Source of the DNA: Botrimarina mediterranea
GTDB lineage: Bacteria; Planctomycetota; Planctomycetia; Pirellulales; Lacipirellulaceae
Assembly (NCBI RefSeq): GCF_007753265.1
Contig: NZ_CP036349.1
Span: 3,753,363-3,817,362, forward strand
Length of the DNA: 64,000 nt
Direction of reading: 5' to 3'
Below the pieces are notes generated by a model, which did no database searches, was not told the origin of the DNA, and saw only the letters and a list, made by a program, of their open reading frames with translations. Positions 1 through 10,509 of this stretch are shown here, in pieces. Both the position numbers and the translations under genes were made by a program. Numbering within the stretch: position 1 is the stretch's first letter; every line of letters begins with the position of its first letter.

Positions 1-1002
1 CAACAGATCGTCTCGCGCGAGGTTGGACTCACCGAGCCGATCCGCATCGGCCACAGCAGCGAGCGCGTTCTCGAGCAGACATTGCGTGAAACGCTGAGCC
101 CGTCGCCCGAAGCGCGGCCCGCGTCGGGCGCCGAGCTAGCCGGGCGGTTGCAGCTCGCGTTGCACCCGGAGGCGGCGGCGGTGTTCGATCCACCACCCAA
201 TAACTGGCGGCGCTACGCGTTGGCGGCGTGGCCGCTAACCGTGGTCTTAGCCGCGGTGCTCTTGCCCAACATCGCAGCGGGGCTCTTCAACTACTTCTAC
301 AACGAGCGCGAGATCATCCAGAAGCATCCGGAGATGAAGGACTACTTCGTCGCCCTCTCGACGGTGGTGAACTCGATCGCCTTCCCGCTCGGCGGCGTCT
401 TGGCGATGTACTACGGCCTGCCGATCGTACGATCGATCCAACGCGCGAAGCGTGGCGAGGACGCAACGACCGCAGAGATCGACAGCCTGTTTCATCTCTG
501 CCACCGCGGCGCGCTGCTCGGCGGCACGTTGTGGGGGATCGCGAGCTTCGTGTTCCCGATCGCTTTGACTCTGCGGTTTGGTGACGAGTTTCCGCCACAA
601 GAAGCAGGTCACTTCTTCCTCTCGCTACTCGTATGTGGCGGCGTGGCGGCGGTGTACCCCTACTTCTTGCTCGTAACGCTCGCTACTTCGGTTTATTACC
701 CACGCTTGGTGCGTGGCACGATGTCGGACCCCAAGTTCGACAAACGCGGCGTTCACCTCAGCGACCACGGCGTCTACTACCTGCTCGCCGCGGCGTCGAT
801 CCCGCTGATGGCGATCGTGCTCCTCTTGTCTCGGACCGAGGAGATGGACAAGTTCCGCGATATGATCCTCTGTGGTGTGTTTGCGACGCTGTTCGGGTTA
901 CTGGCCGCGTTCTCGGCGTATCGGTACGTGCTGCGGGTCTGGACTCAGATCACGCCCGTGTTGTCACGGCGGAAGTCCAATGCGGCGCCAGGCCTCGAGT
1001 AG
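1..1002 (+). CDS. C-terminal part of a membrane-anchored Ser/Thr protein kinase (5' end outside the window)
   Basis: The frame is already open at base 1, so only the 3' portion is present; the TTG at 82 is an unlikely start because kinase-like sequence continues upstream of it. Residues about 30-47 (SPSPEARPASGAEL) match the end of the C-lobe of bacterial Hanks-type kinases, where the D-P-x-x-R-P motif lies. A short proline-rich spacer follows, then about six hydrophobic segments (roughly residues 72-95, 115-137, 170-190, 205-230, 258-277 and 288-307, counted from base 1). Planctomycetes have many kinases of the form cytoplasmic kinase plus membrane tail, and this fits. The catalytic residues lie upstream of the window and cannot be checked. 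A perfect inverted repeat and a bidirectional terminator follow the gene. Confidence 0.7.
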   Translation, partial: QQIVSREVGLTEPIRIGHSSERVLEQTLRETLSPSPEARPASGAELAGRLQLALHPEAAAVFDPPPNNWRRYALAAWPLTVVLAAVLLPNIAAGLFNYFYNEREIIQKHPEMKDYFVALSTVVNSIAFPLGGVLAMYYGLPIVRSIQRAKRGEDATTAEIDSLFHLCHRGALLGGTLWGIASFVFPIALTLRFGDEFPPQEAGHFFLSLLVCGGVAAVYPYFLLVTLATSVYYPRLVRGTMSDPKFDKRGVHLSDHGVYYLLAAASIPLMAIVLLLSRTEEMDKFRDMILCGVFATLFGLLAAFSAYRYVLRVWTQITPVLSRRKSNAAPGLE

Positions 1003-2521: not shown

Positions 2522-2549
2522 CCAAGCGACGACCTGCGGCGGGTGTTAC
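2522..2549 (-). promoter_or_regulatory. Shared promoter-like element, copy A (GTAACA-N15-CGCTTGG)
   Basis: Read on the minus strand, GTAACA (2544-2549) is followed after exactly 15 nt by CGCTTGG (2522-2528), about 92 nt before the start of the 2028-2429 gene. Four more copies with the same 15-nt spacing precede four other secreted-protein genes nearby. Spacing and position suit the -35 and -10 boxes of an alternative sigma factor. Confidence 0.6.
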
Positions 2550-2573
2550 CGATCAAACTCGAAAATTGAAAAG

Positions 2574-2759
2574 TCTCGCGCAGAGACGCGGAGACGCAGA
2601 GAGTTGGTGCGTGGAATGACTCACGCAAAGGAGCTAAGACGCAAAGAAGGAAGAAAGGGAAGAGAAAGAAGATTAAACAATCGGTCCTTTGCGTCTTAGC
2701 GCCTTTGCGTGAGTCTTAAAGGCTTCCCTTCCTCTGCGTCTCCGCGTCTCTGCGCGAGA
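2574..2759. repeat. Nested double inverted-repeat element
   Basis: Outer 28-bp arms at 2574-2601 and 2732-2759 are perfect reverse complements (core GCAGAGACGCGGAGACGCAG). Inner 28-bp arms at 2619-2646 and 2687-2714 match except at one position (core CACGCAAAG...CTAAGACGCAAAG). The element lies between two divergent secreted-protein genes and their promoter-like elements. It encodes nothing and looks like a non-autonomous palindromic element. Confidence 0.85.
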
Positions 2760-2794
2760 TTCTCAAGCTTCTTTGGAGAATTGAGTGACAACGG

Positions 2795-2822
2795 GTAACA
2801 TCAGCCGCGTGTCGCCGCTGGG
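2795..2822 (+). promoter_or_regulatory. Shared promoter-like element, copy B (GTAACA-N15-CGCTGGG)
   Basis: GTAACA (2795-2800), 15 nt, CGCTGGG (2816-2822), 42 nt before the ATG at 2865. Confidence 0.6.
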
Positions 2823-2864
2823 CGGGATTAAGGTCCCAACCCAACCCCAACCCCACGACCGATC

Positions 2865-3746
2865 ATGCGTTACTACCTACCAATGGCCCTCGTGGCCCTT
2901 TGCCTGCCGGTCGCCGCTAGCGGCGACGAGCTGTTCTCCGAGGTGGCTGTCGAGAGCGTCTTCGGCGCCTCGAGCAAGTCGGCCGATGGCGCTGCCGCCT
3001 CGACGGGCGTCTCCGCGACGGGGGTCCGGGTGACCGGCGCCGGGCAGCTCGGCGAGCTGCTGCGGGAACTGGGGTTCGAGCCCGAACGGGTCGATGGCCG
3101 CACCGTCACCATCCAGCTGGCCCACGGCCAATGGACGATCCCGACGACGCTCCACGCCGCCATCGACCGCAGCCAGGTCGATGTGACGATGGGCCTGGCG
3201 ACCCCCGAGAAAGGCGTCAAATGGGACGCCAACAAGCTGCTGCGGCTGCTGGCCGACCCCGAGGACGGGGGCGCCCACTTCGCCTTCGATAGCTCGAAGG
3301 GGCAGGTTCAGGTCCGTCAGACGGTGTCGGCCCGTGAGGTCACCAGCGTCAACCTGGGCCGGCTGCTAACCGAGATGGCCGAGTTCGCCGTCTCTCGTGA
3401 GAGCGCCTGGTTCGACAAGCCGAAGGAGTCCGACAAGTCGACACCCGCCACTACGAACGCCGCGGCGCCGACCTCGATCATCGGCTCGTGGGTCGCCAGC
3501 CTAGGCCAGGGCGAGGCGTTCGCCATCAAGCTCACCGCCGACGGCAAGTTCCAACTCGCCCACGTCAAAGCGGGCAAGACGACCACGTCCAACGGCAAAG
3601 CCGAGCGGACGGGTGACCAGCTGAGGCTGGTCGGTGACGGCAGCGTCACGATCTCCGGCACGCTCTCGAACATCACCGCCGAGGGCTTCGACCTGACGCT
3701 CACCAGCGGCAAGAAGCTGTCCTTCAAGAAGCCCGCGGCGAAATAA
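2865..3746 (+). CDS. Secreted two-domain protein with C-terminal 'GSW' beta module
   Basis: 293 aa. Signal peptide about residues 1-20. Residues about 55-165 (GQLGELLRELGF... onwards) alternate helices and strands and could be a YbjN/type III chaperone-like fold, but this is only an impression. After a Lys/Ser/Thr-rich linker, residues about 205-290 form a module beginning IIGSWVA with spacing L-x-L-x(3)-G-x-F, then GK, L-R-L and GTL. The same pattern ends the 6411-7205 product, so the two share a domain, perhaps a small lipocalin-like barrel. Its promoter element is copy B. No Shine-Dalgarno sequence is obvious. The function is unknown. Confidence 0.75.
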   Translation: MRYYLPMALVALCLPVAASGDELFSEVAVESVFGASSKSADGAAASTGVSATGVRVTGAGQLGELLRELGFEPERVDGRTVTIQLAHGQWTIPTTLHAAIDRSQVDVTMGLATPEKGVKWDANKLLRLLADPEDGGAHFAFDSSKGQVQVRQTVSAREVTSVNLGRLLTEMAEFAVSRESAWFDKPKESDKSTPATTNAAAPTSIIGSWVASLGQGEAFAIKLTADGKFQLAHVKAGKTTTSNGKAERTGDQLRLVGDGSVTISGTLSNITAEGFDLTLTSGKKLSFKKPAAK

Positions 3747-3777
3747 GCGAACTATGGGACCTTTGCAATGACGGCGC

Positions 3778-3877
3778 AGCCGCGGGCGGAAGCCTGCGGT
3801 TGTTGCTGTGCGCGGTCACCAGCAGCGGGCGAGCCCCGAGGCTCCGAGGCTCCGAGGGCTGCCGCCACCCGGCTGAG
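3778..3877. repeat. Imperfect inverted repeat, CTCAGCCGCGGGCGGTAGCC class
   Basis: The left arm 3778-3795 (CAGCCGCGGGCGGAAGCC) pairs imperfectly with 3857-3877 (ending CCACCCGGCTGAG). The same arm words recur at 18732-18820. The open frame that runs upstream of the protease start passes through this element, which argues against an earlier start there. Confidence 0.6.
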
Positions 3878-3909
3878 GTCTTTCGTGAAAGGGGAATCGG
3901 GGAACGGCT

Positions 3910-3937
3910 GTAACACTTTTCGCGGGTTGTCGCTGGG
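3910..3937 (+). promoter_or_regulatory. Shared promoter-like element, copy C (GTAACA-N15-CGCTGGG)
   Basis: GTAACA (3910-3915), 15 nt, CGCTGGG (3931-3937), 64 nt before the protease ATG at 4002. A TCTTTCGTG word lies 22 nt upstream (3879-3887) and is also found upstream of copy D. Confidence 0.6.
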
Positions 3938-4001
3938 ATTTGCAGAACCAACCCTGCCGCTCGCCAAGCGGCTCCAACCCAACTCTTTAAGGAACTCTCC
4001 C

Positions 4002-5186
4002 ATGTCCGCTTTCCGCCTCAACTTACGACCCCTGACCTTGCTCGCGGCCTTGGCCGTCATCGCCACCGCGGAGGTGGCGCGGGCCGACGCGGCGCTGTAT
4101 CGGCAGGTCCTGGACGCCACGACCTGGGTCCTCTCGAAGAACTCCGAAGGGACCTCAAGCGGCACCGGCGTGTTGGTGGACGCCGAGAAGCGGCTGATGA
4201 TCACCAACGCCCACGTCGTCGGCGACAGCCGTAGTGCGGTGATCTTCTTCCGAGACTTGAAAGACGACAAGCCGATCGTCGAAAAGAAGCACTACCTCGA
4301 CAATGTCCGTAAACTGGGCGTCCGGGGCCGGATCGTCGCGATCGACCGCAAGCGGGACCTAGCCCTGGTGGAGCTGGAAAAGCTCCCCGAATTCGCCAAG
4401 GCCCTCGAACTAGCGGCCGACAGCACGGGCCCCGGCGAGTCGATCGACTCGATCGGCAACCCCGGCGCCAGCGACGCCCTCTGGGTCTACACCTCGGGCA
4501 AAGTCCGCAGCGTCTACGTCAAGGAGTTCCGCACCGGCGCCGGCGAGCACGAGTTCCGCGTCGTCGAAACCCAGTCGCCGCTCAACACGGGCGACTCGGG
4601 TGGACCGATCGTCAGCCAGGACGGCAAACTCGTGGGCGTCGTCCAGGCGATCAGCAAGAAGGGCTCGCTGATCAGCTACGGCGTGGACATCAACGAGGTG
4701 AAGGAGTTCCTCGCCAGCGACTGGAAGCCCGCCCCGCTGCCCATCGCCGACGTGCTCGCCAAGACCGAATTGAAGGCTGAGAAGCACGAATCGGGCCACT
4801 TCACGGTCAAGATCGCGACCGAGAAGGACGGCGATCAGGAGGTCTTCGTCACCAAGGACACCGAGTACTACGGCCGGACCGACGTCCGTAAGGTGTGGTC
4901 GCTGGCCGCCTCGATCGAGTCAAAGGAGTTGACCGAGGAGACGATGCGGAAGCTGCTGGAACAGTCGGCCCGCACGAAGCTCGGCGGCTGGTCGGTCGAG
5001 TCGGACGGCCAGGGCAAGTACCTGCTGATCTACGTCTCGAAGGTCGACGCCACGGCGACGCCCGACTCGCTGGCGAGCATCCTGGAGTACACCGGCAAGA
5101 TCACCGCGGCGATGAAAAAGGAGCTGGAGCCGAAGAAGGCCGCCCAGGAAGCGAGCGACACGCTCCAAGACTGGCTCTCGGAGTAA
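4002..5186 (+). CDS. Secreted trypsin-like (S1C) serine protease
   Basis: 394 aa. The ATG at 4002 is chosen because AAGGA lies 8 nt upstream and a signal peptide follows at once (residues 1-29, cut after ARA); the longer frame from 3768 crosses a repeat. The catalytic triad is visible: His71 in TNAHVV, Asp119 in RKRDLALVEL, Ser199 in NTGDSGGPIV. This is the DegP/HtrA-type fold, but no PDZ domain follows. Residues about 265-380 instead form a separate alpha/beta domain, possibly YbjN-like, and the chain ends in a helix-rich Lys/Glu tail. Likely an envelope quality-control or processing protease. It is co-directional with three other secreted proteins and carries promoter element copy C. Confidence 0.85.
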   Translation: MSAFRLNLRPLTLLAALAVIATAEVARADAALYRQVLDATTWVLSKNSEGTSSGTGVLVDAEKRLMITNAHVVGDSRSAVIFFRDLKDDKPIVEKKHYLDNVRKLGVRGRIVAIDRKRDLALVELEKLPEFAKALELAADSTGPGESIDSIGNPGASDALWVYTSGKVRSVYVKEFRTGAGEHEFRVVETQSPLNTGDSGGPIVSQDGKLVGVVQAISKKGSLISYGVDINEVKEFLASDWKPAPLPIADVLAKTELKAEKHESGHFTVKIATEKDGDQEVFVTKDTEYYGRTDVRKVWSLAASIESKELTEETMRKLLEQSARTKLGGWSVESDGQGKYLLIYVSKVDATATPDSLASILEYTGKITAAMKKELEPKKAAQEASDTLQDWLSE

Positions 5187-5222
5187 TGGCCCGGTTTTAT
5201 CTTGTTAAGCCCAACGATCGAT

Positions 5223-5297
5223 CTGAGCCGTGGGCGCGAGCCCTCGGTGGGGAGATTGGTACCCGCTACCCACCGAGGGCTCGCGCCCACGGCTCAG
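5223..5297. repeat. Inverted repeat with 29-bp perfect arms
   Basis: 5223-5251 and 5269-5297 are exact reverse complements around a 17-nt loop (arm core GCCGTGGGCGCGAGCCCTCG). It lies about 35 nt after the protease stop and could halt transcription, but the arm sequence and missing T-run place it with the palindromic elements. Confidence 0.85.
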
Positions 5298-5566
5298 ACG
5301 TTCACCTCTGGTGGGGGATGCGGGAGTGGCTCGACCTCAGACGACGGCGGCGGTCATGGACATGCGTTTACATCCGCATAGAGGGCCCATTCGGGGCCTC
5401 TTGGGACTCGGGTAAGGGTTTACCAAGGCCCCTCACCAAAACGCCGTAAACGGCCTGCTAGAGGCCTTCCTGAGGGTTAGTGGGAAACCTCTACGTCGTT
5501 GGTCGGCTGGAAACGCCGCGAATCGCGTCTTTCGTGGGGCTCTGAAAAAGAATCCTCGAAAAACCC

Positions 5567-5594
5567 GTAACACTCCGCCGCCAGGCCCGCTGAG
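5567..5594 (+). promoter_or_regulatory. Shared promoter-like element, copy D (GTAACA-N15-CGCTGAG)
   Basis: GTAACA (5567-5572), 15 nt, CGCTGAG (5588-5594), 68 nt before the ATG at 5663. It is followed by CCTTTCAGACGGGG, which resembles the CTCTTTAGACGGGG after copy E, so the leader is conserved too. The rest of the 5187-5662 gap holds only the 29-bp inverted repeat. Confidence 0.6.
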
Positions 5595-5662
5595 CCTTTC
5601 AGACGGGGACGACAAGAGCCCCGCTCAGCCAACCCAAACGCTTCAAAACAAGGAACCCAGCC

Positions 5663-6121
5663 ATGTCCCGCACCGCCCGCACCGCCAAGATCACCCTCGC
5701 CGCTCTCACCCTGGTCGCCGTAACGGCCGGCAGCTCGCTCGCCTGCGGCGGCGGTGGCGGCGGCGGCCGCACCTCGGGCCGCTTCGCGATCAACTACCAC
5801 CGCAACGTCGGCCACATGAAGACCCAGGCCCCGCGGCAAAGCTACAACCAAGGCGGCAACTACCACCGCGCCGCCCCCAGCTACCACCAGGCGCCAGTCG
5901 TCTCGCAGCCGATTCACCATCAGCCGGTCGCCGTTCAGCCGCAGCACGTGCAACAGCCCGTCCAACAGCCGATCGTGCAGCAGCCCACCGCGGCGCCGCA
6001 GTTCGCCCCCCAGCAGGGCGCCCAACCGACCGGCGTCGTGACCACGCCTGCCACTGTTGACCCGACGGCCCAATCGCCTGAAGACGCCGCCCTGGCCGCT
6101 TTGGCGGCCTTTGGCGAGTGA
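5663..6121 (+). CDS. Small secreted Gly/His/Gln-rich protein
   Basis: 152 aa, low complexity, family not recognised. The signal peptide (1-27) ends at ACGGGGGGG, so the mature chain starts with a cysteine and a poly-Gly run. Residues about 40-120 are rich in H, Q, P and Y (repeats such as VQQP and HHQP). It ends DAALAALAAFGE, matched by SALDALAAFGG in the next gene product. AAGGAA lies about 7 nt before the ATG. The start-cysteine pattern ACGG could be read as a lipobox, but it lacks the usual L-x-G/A/S before Cys (here S-L-A-C), so lipidation is possible, not certain. Likely a surface or matrix protein. Confidence 0.75.
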   Translation: MSRTARTAKITLAALTLVAVTAGSSLACGGGGGGGRTSGRFAINYHRNVGHMKTQAPRQSYNQGGNYHRAAPSYHQAPVVSQPIHHQPVAVQPQHVQQPVQQPIVQQPTAAPQFAPQQGAQPTGVVTTPATVDPTAQSPEDAALAALAAFGE

Positions 6122-6318
6122 GACTCTCCCCCAGAATTGGGTTGGCCCGAGAGGGGGCGCTTCGGCAGTGTGCCGGGGCGTCCCCTCTTGCTTTTTTGGC
6201 GGGTCAAAACCGGGAGCACTCCCCCCCCACTTGCGTGTGGGGCTCTGAGTTGTCGAGCAGGTGCGACTGTCCTTGCGGTTCCTTTCTGCTGAGGCGGGGA
6301 AGTTTTCGAGGAATGTTA

Positions 6319-6346
6319 GTAACAGGCGCCCTGCCCTGCCGCTGGG
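6319..6346 (+). promoter_or_regulatory. Shared promoter-like element, copy E (GTAACA-N15-CGCTGGG)
   Basis: GTAACA (6319-6324), 15 nt, CGCTGGG (6340-6346), 64 nt before the ATG at 6411, the same distance as copy C. It is followed by CTCTTTAGACGGGG, as in copy D. Confidence 0.6.
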
Positions 6347-6410: not shown

Positions 6411-7205
6411 ATGGCCTCGACCTTCACCAACGCGACCTGCTCGATCGTTCTCACTGCCCTGTCGGCCTCGCAGGCGTTCGCCTGCGGCGGTGGCGGCGGC
6501 GGCTTCGGTGGGTACAGCGGCGGATACGGCGGCGGTTATAGCTACCCGAGCTACTCGCAGCCCGCTTACCACCAACCCGTCTACCAACAGCCGCAGCGTG
6601 TCGTACACCAGCCGCAGCATTACGGCCAGCAACCGCAATACGGCCAAACCCCGTACGGTCAGCAGCCGTACAGCGGCCAACCGGCGTTTCAGCCGCAAGG
6701 CCAATCGCAAGGCCAGCCGCAGTTCGCCCAGCAGCCGCAGGGGCAGCCGCCACAGCAACCCATCGCTCAGCAGCCGCAACAGCAGCAAGCCGCGCCTCAA
6801 GCAGCGGCCCCACAGCAGCAGCCGACGCCGCAGGCGGCTTCACAGCCGAGCCTCGACGCGTCGGGCTCCGCGCTCGACGCCCTGGCGGCGTTCGGCGGCG
6901 CCCCTGCGGCTCAAGGGGTGTCCTCCCAGTCCCCGAGCTTCGTCGGCTCGTGGACGGCGAACGTCAACGGCACGAACCGCGTCCAGCTGCAACTCGACGC
7001 CAACGGCGGCTTCAACTGGGTCGCCAACTCCAACGGCAAGGTCAGCTCGTTCGGCGGCAGCTACACGCTCGCCAATGGCCAGCTGACGCTCATTCGGTCC
7101 AGCGACAACCAGCAACTCGCCGGCACGCTGATCCCCGAATCGGCGGGCGGCTTCCGCTTCAAGCTCGCCTCGTCGACCGGCGACGGCCTGCTGTTCGTCC
7201 GTTGA
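6411..7205 (+). CDS. Secreted Gly/Tyr/Gln-rich protein with C-terminal 'GSW' module
   Basis: 264 aa. The ATG at 6411 is preferred over the longer frame from 6261 because AAGGA lies 9 nt upstream and a signal peptide (1-24, ending AFACGGGG) follows; promoter element E would otherwise lie inside the gene. Residues about 25-50 are a Gly/Tyr stretch, about 50-155 a Gln/Pro-rich stretch with QQP and GQP repeats, then SALDALAAFGG. The C-terminal 85 residues (FVGSWTANV...) are the beta module also found in the 2865-3746 product. The architecture is a disordered sticky linker plus a compact domain, probably extracellular. It appears related by duplication to the 5663 gene (same start of mature chain, same DALAAFG motif, similar leader). 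Confidence 0.78.
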   Translation: MASTFTNATCSIVLTALSASQAFACGGGGGGFGGYSGGYGGGYSYPSYSQPAYHQPVYQQPQRVVHQPQHYGQQPQYGQTPYGQQPYSGQPAFQPQGQSQGQPQFAQQPQGQPPQQPIAQQPQQQQAAPQAAAPQQQPTPQAASQPSLDASGSALDALAAFGGAPAAQGVSSQSPSFVGSWTANVNGTNRVQLQLDANGGFNWVANSNGKVSSFGGSYTLANGQLTLIRSSDNQQLAGTLIPESAGGFRFKLASSTGDGLLFVR

Positions 7206-7649: not shown

Positions 7650-8285
7650 ATGCCGGCCTCCACCTTCGCAGGGTGGCGGGTTCTGCCGGCGCTGGCCGCA
7701 CTCGTTTGCGCCGCGCTGCTCCCCGCCCCGACTTACGCCCAATCCTTCAGCAGCTACCTCGGTGGCTGGAGCTACGTCGATCGCAACAACGATGGCGTAC
7801 TCAATTTCAGCAACGATCCGAATCCAGAAATCGTGATCGGCGGCGTCGAAATCAACTTGTACAAGCACAACGGGGTTGATTACATCCAGATCGCCAGCAC
7901 CGCGACGGACCCCTACGGCCGTTATCAGTTCGGCCAGTTAGACGCGGGCCGCTACAAGATCGAACAAGTCCAGCCCGTGGGCTGGGTCGACGGAAAAGAC
8001 ACCGCGGGCGTGCTGCTCGCCATCAATGACCAGTCGGTCCCGCCCGGCAGCAATGTCGGCGTGTCGGGCAACAACTTCGTTACCGACATCCAGCTCACCA
8101 ATAATACGATCGGTGAGTTCTACAACTTCGGCGAACGCGGTCTGGCCGCGGGGTACGTGTCGAAGCGTTTCTTGTTCGCTTCGACACCCTCGAATCCCTT
8201 TGGCGAGCCGGTCCCCGAGCCAACGACCTTGGCGATGATCGTTGGCGTCGGGGTTGGCTTGCTGACCGCTCCACGCCGTCGTTGA
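7650..8285 (+). CDS. PEP-CTERM protein with SdrD B-like domain
   Basis: 211 aa from the ATG at 7650 (a TTG five codons earlier is the alternative). Signal peptide about residues 1-30, cut after TYAQ. Residues about 37-160 contain VDRNNDGVLN, GVEINLYK and TDPYGRYQFGQLDAGRYKIEQ, the pattern of the SdrD B-like (Cna B-type) repeat that binds calcium and forms stalks. The end, VPEPTTLAMIVGVGVGLLTAPRRR, split here as V-P-E-P, a hydrophobic helix and terminal R-R-R, is a PEP-CTERM sorting signal. The cognate sorting enzyme is an exosortase, not encoded in this window. Convergent with the BBP7 gene, with only 14 nt between. Confidence 0.85.
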   Translation: MPASTFAGWRVLPALAALVCAALLPAPTYAQSFSSYLGGWSYVDRNNDGVLNFSNDPNPEIVIGGVEINLYKHNGVDYIQIASTATDPYGRYQFGQLDAGRYKIEQVQPVGWVDGKDTAGVLLAINDQSVPPGSNVGVSGNNFVTDIQLTNNTIGEFYNFGERGLAAGYVSKRFLFASTPSNPFGEPVPEPTTLAMIVGVGVGLLTAPRRR

Positions 8286-8299
8286 CGTAACGCGTCGCG

Positions 8300-9616
8300 C
8301 TAGTAGGTAAAGTCGACGCCGAAATCGAAGCCGTGCGCCACAAGGTCCGATCCGGTGACGCCCGGGAACGCCGGTTCCGGACCGCCGCCGGTCTGCACGG
8401 GCGGCAGGTTCCGCGGGTCCACCGCCAGCCCTGGCGGCAGATGCGACGCGGCGCGGGCCACGTCGCCCCAAAGGATCACGTTGTACCCGGCATGGATGCC
8501 GAGGTTGCACGTCAGCTGCGCGCCCAGGCCGAGCCGGAACTCGGGGATCACCACCGTCGAGGTGTCCGTGTAGCGGCCGATGTTGGTCACTTCGGACGTG
8601 AGCAGGCCGCCATCGAACGTGGCCGTTCCGCCGCCGGGGACGTTGTTGATCGTCTGTCCGCCGACGGTGACGGTGCGGCGGTTGGCGCCGATCGCCAGCT
8701 TGGCCGAGCCATCGATCCACCACCACGAGCAGCCACGCCGCGCCATCAGGCCGATCTCGCCGCCGTGGAACTCGTTCTTGGCGTCGAACTGGTCGTGCAC
8801 CGAGATCGTCGTGCCGGGCACCAGTGGCTGCGTCGTGCCCGGAAGCACTTCCAGCTGCTCGTTGATCGACAGGCTCGAGTCGAGCTGGTAGTAGCGGTAC
8901 CCCGACATCACATCGAGCGTGAACGACGGGCCACAGCCGCACGGGTCGCAGCAACGGATCAAGTTCTGCTGCAACGAGATGCCCGCGCCTTGGAACGTGT
9001 CCGAACCACGGACCGTGACCGTGCCGTCGAGCTCGTTCGGCACCGAGACAAGCTCCGCATCGGGCTCGTCCAGTTCGCTGTTGAAAAACGGGCGGCCGAC
9101 GATGGTGTTCGGGTCTTGCGAACGCGAGTAGTCGTAGCCGTCGCTGCCGGTGTTGAAGTAGTCGCCGGCGATCCCGATGGTCTGGCAGCCGTCGAGCCAC
9201 ACCCCGCCGCGGAGCCGGTAACCGCTCCGCCAGCCGTCGCCGATCCGCTCGTCACCGGCCAGGATGCTGGTCGTCGGCTGGCCCAAGACGGCCGAATCGA
9301 CAATCGGCGTGCCCGCCGGGCTAGCAGTCACCAGCGGCGGCACGTAGTCGCCGTCGAGCTGCCAGAGAATGTAGTCGGCCGAGAACCACGCCCCGCCGAG
9401 CCCGCCTCTGCCGCCGCCGTAGGTGTAGCAAACCTCGTCGCCACATCCGCAGGCTTCGGGCAGATCGCAGACGGTGTCACAGCAGCCATAGCTCGTGACG
9501 TCGCAGCAATCCGACGCGTAGGCGTCTTGGGCGTGGCTCACCGCCGGCCAAGCCAGCAGCGCTGCCGTGAGCCCCATCGTGCGACGCAACGCGCCGCCTA
9601 GGTTAAAGCGCATCAT
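8300..9616 (-). CDS. BBP7-family outer membrane beta-barrel protein
   Basis: 438 aa. Signal peptide about 1-29. A Cys-rich segment follows (residues about 35-65, with CCDV, CCDTVC and CGCGDEVC), then alternating strands from WFSADYILWQL to a C-terminal ...FGVDFTY ending in an aromatic residue, typical of outer-membrane barrels. The family (planctomycete BBP7) is known mainly from this phylum and is thought to be a surface barrel; its substrate is unknown. GGAGGGG stands directly before the first ATG of the MM start. It lies downstream of the sigma factor gene on the same strand. Confidence 0.8.
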   Translation of the reverse strand: MMRFNLGGALRRTMGLTAALLAWPAVSHAQDAYASDCCDVTSYGCCDTVCDLPEACGCGDEVCYTYGGGRGGLGGAWFSADYILWQLDGDYVPPLVTASPAGTPIVDSAVLGQPTTSILAGDERIGDGWRSGYRLRGGVWLDGCQTIGIAGDYFNTGSDGYDYSRSQDPNTIVGRPFFNSELDEPDAELVSVPNELDGTVTVRGSDTFQGAGISLQQNLIRCCDPCGCGPSFTLDVMSGYRYYQLDSSLSINEQLEVLPGTTQPLVPGTTISVHDQFDAKNEFHGGEIGLMARRGCSWWWIDGSAKLAIGANRRTVTVGGQTINNVPGGGTATFDGGLLTSEVTNIGRYTDTSTVVIPEFRLGLGAQLTCNLGIHAGYNVILWGDVARAASHLPPGLAVDPRNLPPVQTGGGPEPAFPGVTGSDLVAHGFDFGVDFTY

Positions 9617-9897: not shown

Positions 9898-10509
9898 CTA
9901 GCGGTCGGTAGGGCGGACGTCTTCTAGCTGCTCTTCGAGGACGCGGACGCTACGCGACAAGAGCACCCGGATCGCGACGTCGGTCTTGCCGAGCCGGGCG
10001 GCGATCTCTTTGGTGGGGAGGCCCTCGGCGTAGCGCATCTGGACTGCGGTGCGGGCCTCGTCGGAGAGCCCGCCGACCGCCTCGTGCATGCGTTGTACTC
10101 GCACGTCGCGGCTGAACGCGGCGCTGGGCGAGGTGATGCTAGCGGCGAGGAACGCCTCGAACCCCCCTGCCCCATCGTCGCCCGCGGCGTGCATCGACTG
10201 CACCCGGCCCGCGTCGCGCCGCTGGGCGCCGAAGTGAAACCGATGGGCGTCCACCACCCGCCGCCGGCACAGCTCTTGGAGCCACTGGATCGGCTCGTAC
10301 CGGTCGAGCGGCGCCGTCTCCAAACCGGCCAGCGCGGCGGCGGCGACCTCCTGGATCAGGTCGTCGGGCTCGACCATCGAGAGCAGCTTCGCGCTCATGA
10401 TCGACTTGGTGAAGCCAACGAGCCGGTTACGCTCGGCGTCGATCAGCTCGGCGAGCGCCTGGGCGTCGCGCGCCTTCACCCGTTCGACCAGGGCGTCATT
10501 GGGTTCCAT
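9898..10509 (-). CDS. ECF-type sigma-70 family RNA polymerase sigma factor
   Basis: 203 aa from the ATG at 10509; a GTG 16 codons earlier is possible but gives an unlikely N-terminus. Residues about 5-75 form region 2 (LIDAERNRLVGFTKSIM, with the PDDLIQEVAAAAL acidic segment). Residues about 130-190 form region 4 (LSDEARTAVQMRYAEGLPTKEIAARLGKT), the helix-turn-helix that contacts the -35 box. The length suits an ECF factor. No anti-sigma factor is adjacent. It is the only sigma factor in the window and lies within 3-8 kb of five genes with a shared promoter-like element, so it is a candidate reader of that element; its own upstream region has no copy. Confidence 0.85.
   Translation of the reverse strand: MEPNDALVERVKARDAQALAELIDAERNRLVGFTKSIMSAKLLSMVEPDDLIQEVAAAALAGLETAPLDRYEPIQWLQELCRRRVVDAHRFHFGAQRRDAGRVQSMHAAGDDGAGGFEAFLAASITSPSAAFSRDVRVQRMHEAVGGLSDEARTAVQMRYAEGLPTKEIAARLGKTDVAIRVLLSRSVRVLEEQLEDVRPTDR

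Follow-up and report, generated by a model that had tools for sequence, protein, structure and literature searches.

Which factor reads the two-box element, GTAACA-N15-CGCT, that precedes five genes for exported proteins in Botrimarina mediterranea? The genes lie in a 64,000-nucleotide stretch of contig NZ_CP036349.1 (assembly GCF_007753265.1, positions 3,753,363 to 3,817,362), hereafter termed the window. The initial annotation of this DNA had taken the element as the mark of an alternative sigma factor regulon for surface proteins and had named no sigma factor. Spacing, orientation, distance to the start codon, confinement, conservation across families and a tie to one gene for an extracytoplasmic function (ECF) sigma factor support the sigma factor interpretation. 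Judged from the sequence evidence, the element is very probably the −35/−10 promoter of one dedicated ECF sigma factor, and the ECF gene at 9898–10509 is the best candidate for encoding it.

The repeated element and its extent in the genome

All five copies described in the initial annotation were recovered at their coordinates, each with a spacer of exactly 15 nucleotides (nt) and each oriented toward its gene, and the measured gaps to the start codons agree with the claimed range of 42–92 nt (Table 1). Scanning the window with up to two mismatches gave 8 matches versus 3.4 (standard deviation 1.67) in shuffled sequence, and none of 100 shuffles reached 8; the only perfect matches were these five copies. 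Consistently, a scan of the whole genome (5,871,207 bases) with GTAACA-N15-CGCTKRG, which the initial annotation had proposed as a check, returned 5 matches, all within 2522–6346, versus 1 for the reversed pattern. With a looser pattern the genome gave 11 matches, and the reversed control of that pattern gave 13. Of the six matches gained in this way, one is convincing: the site G000:C1:5114464 (G000 denotes the genome of the window) is one base off, and its CGCT lies 100 nt ahead of a paralog of the Cys/Tyr-rich gene. We refer to this site as the sixth copy.

Sites were also scored with two models built from hand-picked sites. R1 was made from 39 of 57 listed sites, with all six sites of the own genome included, and the leave-out model R2 from 31 of 35 sites from outside Lacipirellulaceae; on the own genome, 150 of 2742 (R1) and 150 of 437 (R2) first-look candidates were scored. 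The sixth copy was the top R1 match genome-wide. The top five R2 matches were the sixth copy together with copies 1, 3, 4 and 5 (E values from 1e-4 to 0.013), copy 3 scoring best (E = 1e-4). Copy 2 was the weakest (E = 5e-4 with R1). Weaker matches at 5738985 (E = 0.0086 with R1 and 0.40 with R2), 3966746 (0.16 with R1) and 2346928 (0.53 with R1 and 0.22 with R2) were excluded as members. Genome-wide, the regulon comprises about six promoters, five of them in one cluster; a large genome-wide regulon was considered and rejected because scanning the own genome, both by pattern and by model, yielded this number.

As far as can be read from the letters, the element is laid out like a promoter that has both an upstream element and a start site. 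A logo was built from 58 aligned sites; since they were picked by pattern, the box columns and position +25 are fixed by selection, and since close relatives are among them, the sites do not amount to 58 independent observations, and not all of them need be promoters. In the unselected columns, an A-rich block occupies −21 to −18 and T-rich positions occur at −16, −15 and −13 relative to the −35 box, A is scarce immediately ahead of GTAAC, G stands at +27 in 94% of the sites, and T-A-G follows at +33 to +35 (53%, 69% and 61%, respectively). Across families the boxes are kept and most spacer columns are variable. GTAAC would serve as the −35 box and CGCT(T/G)NG as the −10 box, with the TAG about 10 nt past CGCT as the probable transcription start. 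The candidate promoters thus written have the form AAC-N16-CG, with CGC in the −10 box. ECF promoters typically carry AAC at −35 and CGT at −10 (PMC8103513; this and the other papers are cited from the available parts of their text), and the AAC-N16-CG geometry equals that of two known ECF promoters, those of BldN (CGTAAC-N16-CGTTGA) and SigW (TGAAAC-N16,17-CGTA) (PMC2375139).

Table 1. Positions of the promoter copies, the candidate regulators and the target genes in the window. Distances run from the motif end to the ATG; aa, amino acids.
Feature	Position	Strand	Remarks
Promoter copy 1, GTAACA-N15-CGCTTGG	2522–2549	−	92 nt to ATG of Cys/Tyr-rich secreted protein gene
Promoter copy 2, GTAACA-N15-CGCTGGG	2795–2822	+	42 nt to ATG of 293-aa secreted protein gene
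Promoter copy 3, GTAACA-N15-CGCTGGG	3910–3937	+	64 nt to ATG of trypsin-like protease gene
Promoter copy 4, GTAACA-N15-CGCTGAG	5567–5594	+	68 nt to ATG of 152-aa Gly/Gln-rich gene
Promoter copy 5, GTAACA-N15-CGCTGGG	6319–6346	+	64 nt to ATG of 264-aa Gly/Gln-rich gene
ECF sigma factor proposed to read the promoters	9898–10509	−	Sigma70_r4_2, E = 1.2e-10
Ser/Thr kinase, C-terminal part	1–1002	+	755 aa; gene starts about 1.27 kb before the window; L041 12098–14365
Target: 133-aa secreted Cys/Tyr-rich protein	2028–2429	−	Conserved TSYWGCY-like tail, 11 homologs aligned
Possible second gene of the same transcript: 255-aa secreted protein	1141–1908	−	Suggested by order and strand
Target: 293-aa secreted protein	2865–3746	+	Predicted type III secretion chaperone/YbjN-like domain and lipocalin-like barrel
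Target: 394-aa secreted trypsin-like serine protease	4002–5186	+	Pfam PF13365, E = 1.7e-21
Target: 152-aa secreted Gly/Gln-rich protein	5663–6121	+	
Target: 264-aa secreted Gly/Gln-rich protein	6411–7205	+	Weak TIGR03066-like C-terminal domain

Ties between the element and the ECF sigma factor gene

The product of the candidate gene contains region 4 (Table 1) and a weak region 2 (E = 0.035), and no family of region 1 or region 3 was found at E 0.1, which is the composition of an ECF sigma factor. Its closest relatives of solved structure are ECF sigma factors, and TIGR02937 scored 59.1 bits, above the cut-off of 42.9. The best-scoring family was TIGR02984 (Sig-70_plancto1), at 98.8 bits under its cut-off of 183.75; TIGR02952, the BldN family, reached 47.1 bits, far under its cut-off of 206.45. 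Of 99 homologs, 92 retain an acidic [ED]x[ED]D motif, which reads EPDD in the window's own sigma factor. No systematic search for an anti-sigma gene was made.

We compared the own genome with 58 others. Across these 59 genomes, sigma matches at a threshold of E ≤ 1e-20 occurred in 31 (own genome included), and those with an identity of at least 69% were restricted to G000, to G001 and G003 of the same genus, and to G007 of the same family. Strict-motif clusters precede orthologs of the same target genes in the latter three, and the ECF sigma gene lies 0–2 genes from the motif cluster in all four. Another genome of the same genus, G002, has no sigma ortholog, no strict motif and no R2 match. 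In the 55 genomes other than these four, the strict motif occurred 42 times versus 39 for the reversed pattern, which is near background; the 42 include three sites of G049, a genome of another family, where a 41% identical sigma homolog lies within a recognisable counterpart of the whole locus and the motif precedes the same gene families. R2 matches (E ≤ 0.05) were found in 15 of 43 family genomes. A contig of R. baltica BR-MGV (L134, L135) carries the region in two inverted copies, whose sigma genes are separated by about 17 kb; this arrangement may be an artefact of assembly.

The spacing of the two boxes was then counted around sigma homologs. In 80 named loci gathered by sigma homology alone (1,262,118 bases), GTAACA-Nk-CGCT occurred 37 times at k = 15, and every other k between 8 and 23 gave 0–3 occurrences; four of the 37 sites come from L121, a locus of the same genus, and the 37 also contain two pairs whose members are identical. 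Thirty-one of the 37 sit 43–100 nt ahead of an open frame whose N-terminus is strongly hydrophobic, the start codon there being the one that gives the most hydrophobic N-terminus, a choice that biases toward a signal-peptide reading. All named loci were kept for the 80-locus counts. For the target-free spacing test, the upstream scoring, the logo, the acidic-motif count and the tree, 12 loci duplicating other contigs were removed, leaving 96 non-redundant loci (two G049 stretches counted). In the 80 of these loci without homologs of the target families, 16 matches fell at k = 15 versus 20 in total over 24 other spacings (0.8 each), and the reversed sequence of these loci gave 2 matches. This excess indicates that the motif is tied to the sigma locus, separately from common descent of the targets.

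Upstream regions of genes, those of the own genome excluded, were scored for the two boxes on a scale with a maximum of 10. In the four target families 34 of 41 genes scored 9–10, as did 17 among 933 other genes. Of the seven target genes below this score, at least four (L043 with two, L122 and L138 with one each) had been given a wrong start by a simple gene caller, and the motif is present before their likely starts. In a tree of 99 sigma homologs, 24 rows were labelled as having the motif (GTAACA or GAAACA), and this label required 16 changes versus a shuffled mean of 21.6, with none of 500 shuffles as low. A single clade of motif-using sigma factors was rejected, as the motif is scattered in this tree, though clustered.

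The cluster is flanked by the sigma gene and a kinase gene, about 8.9 kb apart in the own genome. The kinase (Pkinase, E = 2.9e-32) has about six C-terminal membrane helices by hydropathy and the motif HRDVKPANV, and DFN replaces the usual DFG, a feature common to all five kinases compared. A kinase homolog (E 1e-5) lies near the sigma gene in 59 of the 80 named loci; because kinases are common in these bacteria, some of these neighbours may be unrelated. In the mechanism that we propose, the membrane Ser/Thr kinase most likely controls the sigma factor, which would bind and read the promoters. The active sigma factor would switch on about six promoters and so yield a set of exported proteins: small Cys/Tyr-rich and Gly/Gln-rich proteins, a protease of the trypsin type and the protein with the predicted chaperone-like and lipocalin-like domains. 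The set probably has a role in constructing or maintaining part of the cell envelope.

Alternative explanations

Several observations weigh against the element being the promoter of this one dedicated sigma factor. Its −10 box has CGC rather than the ECF-typical CGT (PMC8103513), and copy 2 comes only eighth with R2 (E = 0.86), beneath two non-cluster matches. GTAACA-N15-CGCT is absent from 74 of the 96 non-redundant loci, which include some short contigs as well as complete 20-kb stretches with sigma and kinase genes, so that not every sigma homolog can be taken to read the motif. GAAACA precedes the Cys/Tyr-rich gene in five loci (Rhodopirellula, Stieleria and strain TBK1r), one of which also has a GTAACA site. 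The motif is missing from the sigma and kinase genes themselves, whose upstream regions score 9–10 in 1 of 86 and 0 of 71 cases, respectively, and the kinase gene of G001 lies about 328 kb from the sigma gene. Besides G000, G001, G003 and G007, 11 of 39 family genomes also match R2 at E ≤ 0.05, and around R2 matches in G034, G006, G060 and G064 no homolog of the window's sigma factor or kinase was found within the stretches covered, of which some were short contigs. The resemblances among copies reported below count on the same side. Autoregulation of the sigma gene through the motif, considered separately, is unsupported by the score of the sigma genes given above. The four stretches with R2 matches are L052, L227, L229 and L230; G034 carries a 39% identical sigma homolog with a kinase away from its R2 match.

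Model matches that lie, in some genomes, away from any sigma homolog found would fit another ECF sigma factor of the same genome reading the promoter, the neighbouring one not being cognate. The own genome gave 45 first-look sigma candidates, one of them passing E 1e-20, so other, more distant sigma factors are probably present. This explanation is unlikely, as both the pattern of presence and absence among close relatives and the spacing-specific enrichment in the 80 loci around homologs of the window's sigma factor point to the neighbouring gene. Two conserved boxes at a fixed spacing could also be the binding site of a single protein, and the element would then be an operator bound by a conventional regulator that recognises two boxes, with the sigma gene a neighbour by accident. 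We judge this quite improbable: the element is non-palindromic and gene-oriented in all five window copies, its ECF-like AAC and CG boxes stand 16 nt apart with a start-like TAG at a near-fixed distance, and the motif stays with the sigma gene where the target genes differ.

The copies might, finally, be alike only through descent of the promoter regions from one duplicated ancestor. Identity amounts to 53% between the leaders of copies 4 and 5, to 67% between the spacers of copies 1 and 2, and to 60% between those of copies 1 and 3. A weak domain is also common to some targets: the claim of the initial annotation that the targets are not homologous throughout holds only in part, because the products of the genes at 2865 and 6411 both have a weak TIGR03066-like C-terminal domain (19.0 and 27.2 bits, both below the cut-off of 93.25) and thus show more kinship than claimed. 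However, the remaining nine downstream flank pairs (21–35% identical) and all ten upstream flank pairs (23–37%) lie at or close to the chance level, which is about 27%, with both boxes identical. The cross-family conservation of the boxes over mostly variable spacer columns, and the presence of the motif close to sigma homologs where the locus holds no member of the target families, likewise speak against descent alone, which we regard as very improbable. Duplication may have spread the motif, but selection alone would keep it.

Exported products and known systems

Returning to the element as an ECF promoter, the products of its target genes have hydrophobic N-termini, the feature by which alone signal peptides were judged. 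The proteins look exported, in line with the initial annotation; the surface location that it added is only partly supported. In the tail of the Cys/Tyr-rich family, Tyr129, Trp130 and Cys132 are invariant in the 11 homologs, and the tail is possibly a sorting or cross-linking signal; the 133-aa protein matched no Pfam family at E 0.1. In the family of the 255-aa protein, 0 of 14 homologs have a motif of their own, with none reaching a score of 8. The structure model of the 293-aa protein is usable in part, at moderate confidence (mean pLDDT 71.5, pTM 0.45), and a Foldseek search with it found type III secretion chaperones (best E = 1.6e-4), YbjN (0.017) and a lipocalin-like protein (0.0087). 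His71, Asp119 and Ser199 of the protease, the putative catalytic triad, are invariant in 8 of 8 aligned homologs; its structure model is unusable (mean pLDDT 44.4). Copy 3, at 3910, falls within a longer open reading frame (3768–5186), and the aligned protease homologs begin downstream of their motif. Two further features of the window were seen nearby. Between the divergent genes, at 2580–2760, simple repeats of the GAGACGC/AGACGCAAAG type stand in copies that face each other. The region 7650–9616, which separates the cluster from the sigma gene, encodes two proteins whose genes have no strict motif: one is BBP7 porin-like, and the other has an SdrD_B domain and weakly matches PEP-CTERM.

For one planctomycete sigma factor, these results supply a candidate kinase, a promoter of defined sequence and a small number of targets. 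They also offer a way into how kinase-linked ECF factors that retain a DAED-like motif become activated, and the promoter can be used as a search tag for uncharacterised exported proteins. Planctomycetes have ECF sigma factors in large numbers, R. baltica for instance 37 genes, and RB10049 and RB10051 have been suggested as a planctomycete sigma-target pair (PMC2754498); the literature examined, in its available parts, assigns no planctomycete promoter to a sigma factor. The promoter and regulon of the window are likewise unreported in the available parts of the literature searched, whose scope did not extend to the ECF classification paper, which may list a group motif.

Among known systems, the ECF43 sigma factors (EcfP/PknT of Vibrio parahaemolyticus), together with EcfK/PknS of Xanthomonas citri, likewise have an ECF sigma gene near a Ser/Thr kinase gene. 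ECF43 factors lack the acidic DAED motif and gain charge through phosphorylation (PMC8999054, PMC8103513), whereas the family of the window's sigma factor keeps an acidic motif in the great majority of homologs (92 of 99). The EcfP mechanism is therefore not simply transferable, and EcfP-like charge restoration was rejected as a simple model. Kinase-linked groups other than ECF43 retain a DAED-like motif and may act differently (PMC8999054, PMC8103513). The window's sigma factor can be set beside the planctomycete groups ECF59, ECF61, ECF62 and ECF217, which are proposed to be kinase-regulated and for which planctomycete examples are tabulated, Rhodopirellula proteins in the case of ECF62 and ECF217; the available part of that table's paper gives no promoter or regulon for these four groups (PMC8999054). 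We tentatively suggest that a six-helix DFN kinase may activate an ECF factor that retains its acidic motif by a mechanism unlike that of EcfP, driving from a near-invariant promoter a dedicated set of exported envelope proteins, among them a secreted protein whose fold resembles type III secretion chaperones; this composite picture is possible, if somewhat doubtful.

The promoter of BldN from Streptomyces, CGTAAC-N16-CGTTGA (PMC2375139), resembles the GTAAC-N16-CGCTT of the window. BldN activates secreted coat proteins, the chaplins and rodlins, and is controlled by the anti-sigma factor RsbN (PMC4255298). Family searches revealed no link of the window's targets to chaplins, and the parallel is one of analogy, not of membership. 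Set beside these systems, the cluster and its promoter are a new regulon of a known kind, an ECF sigma regulon.

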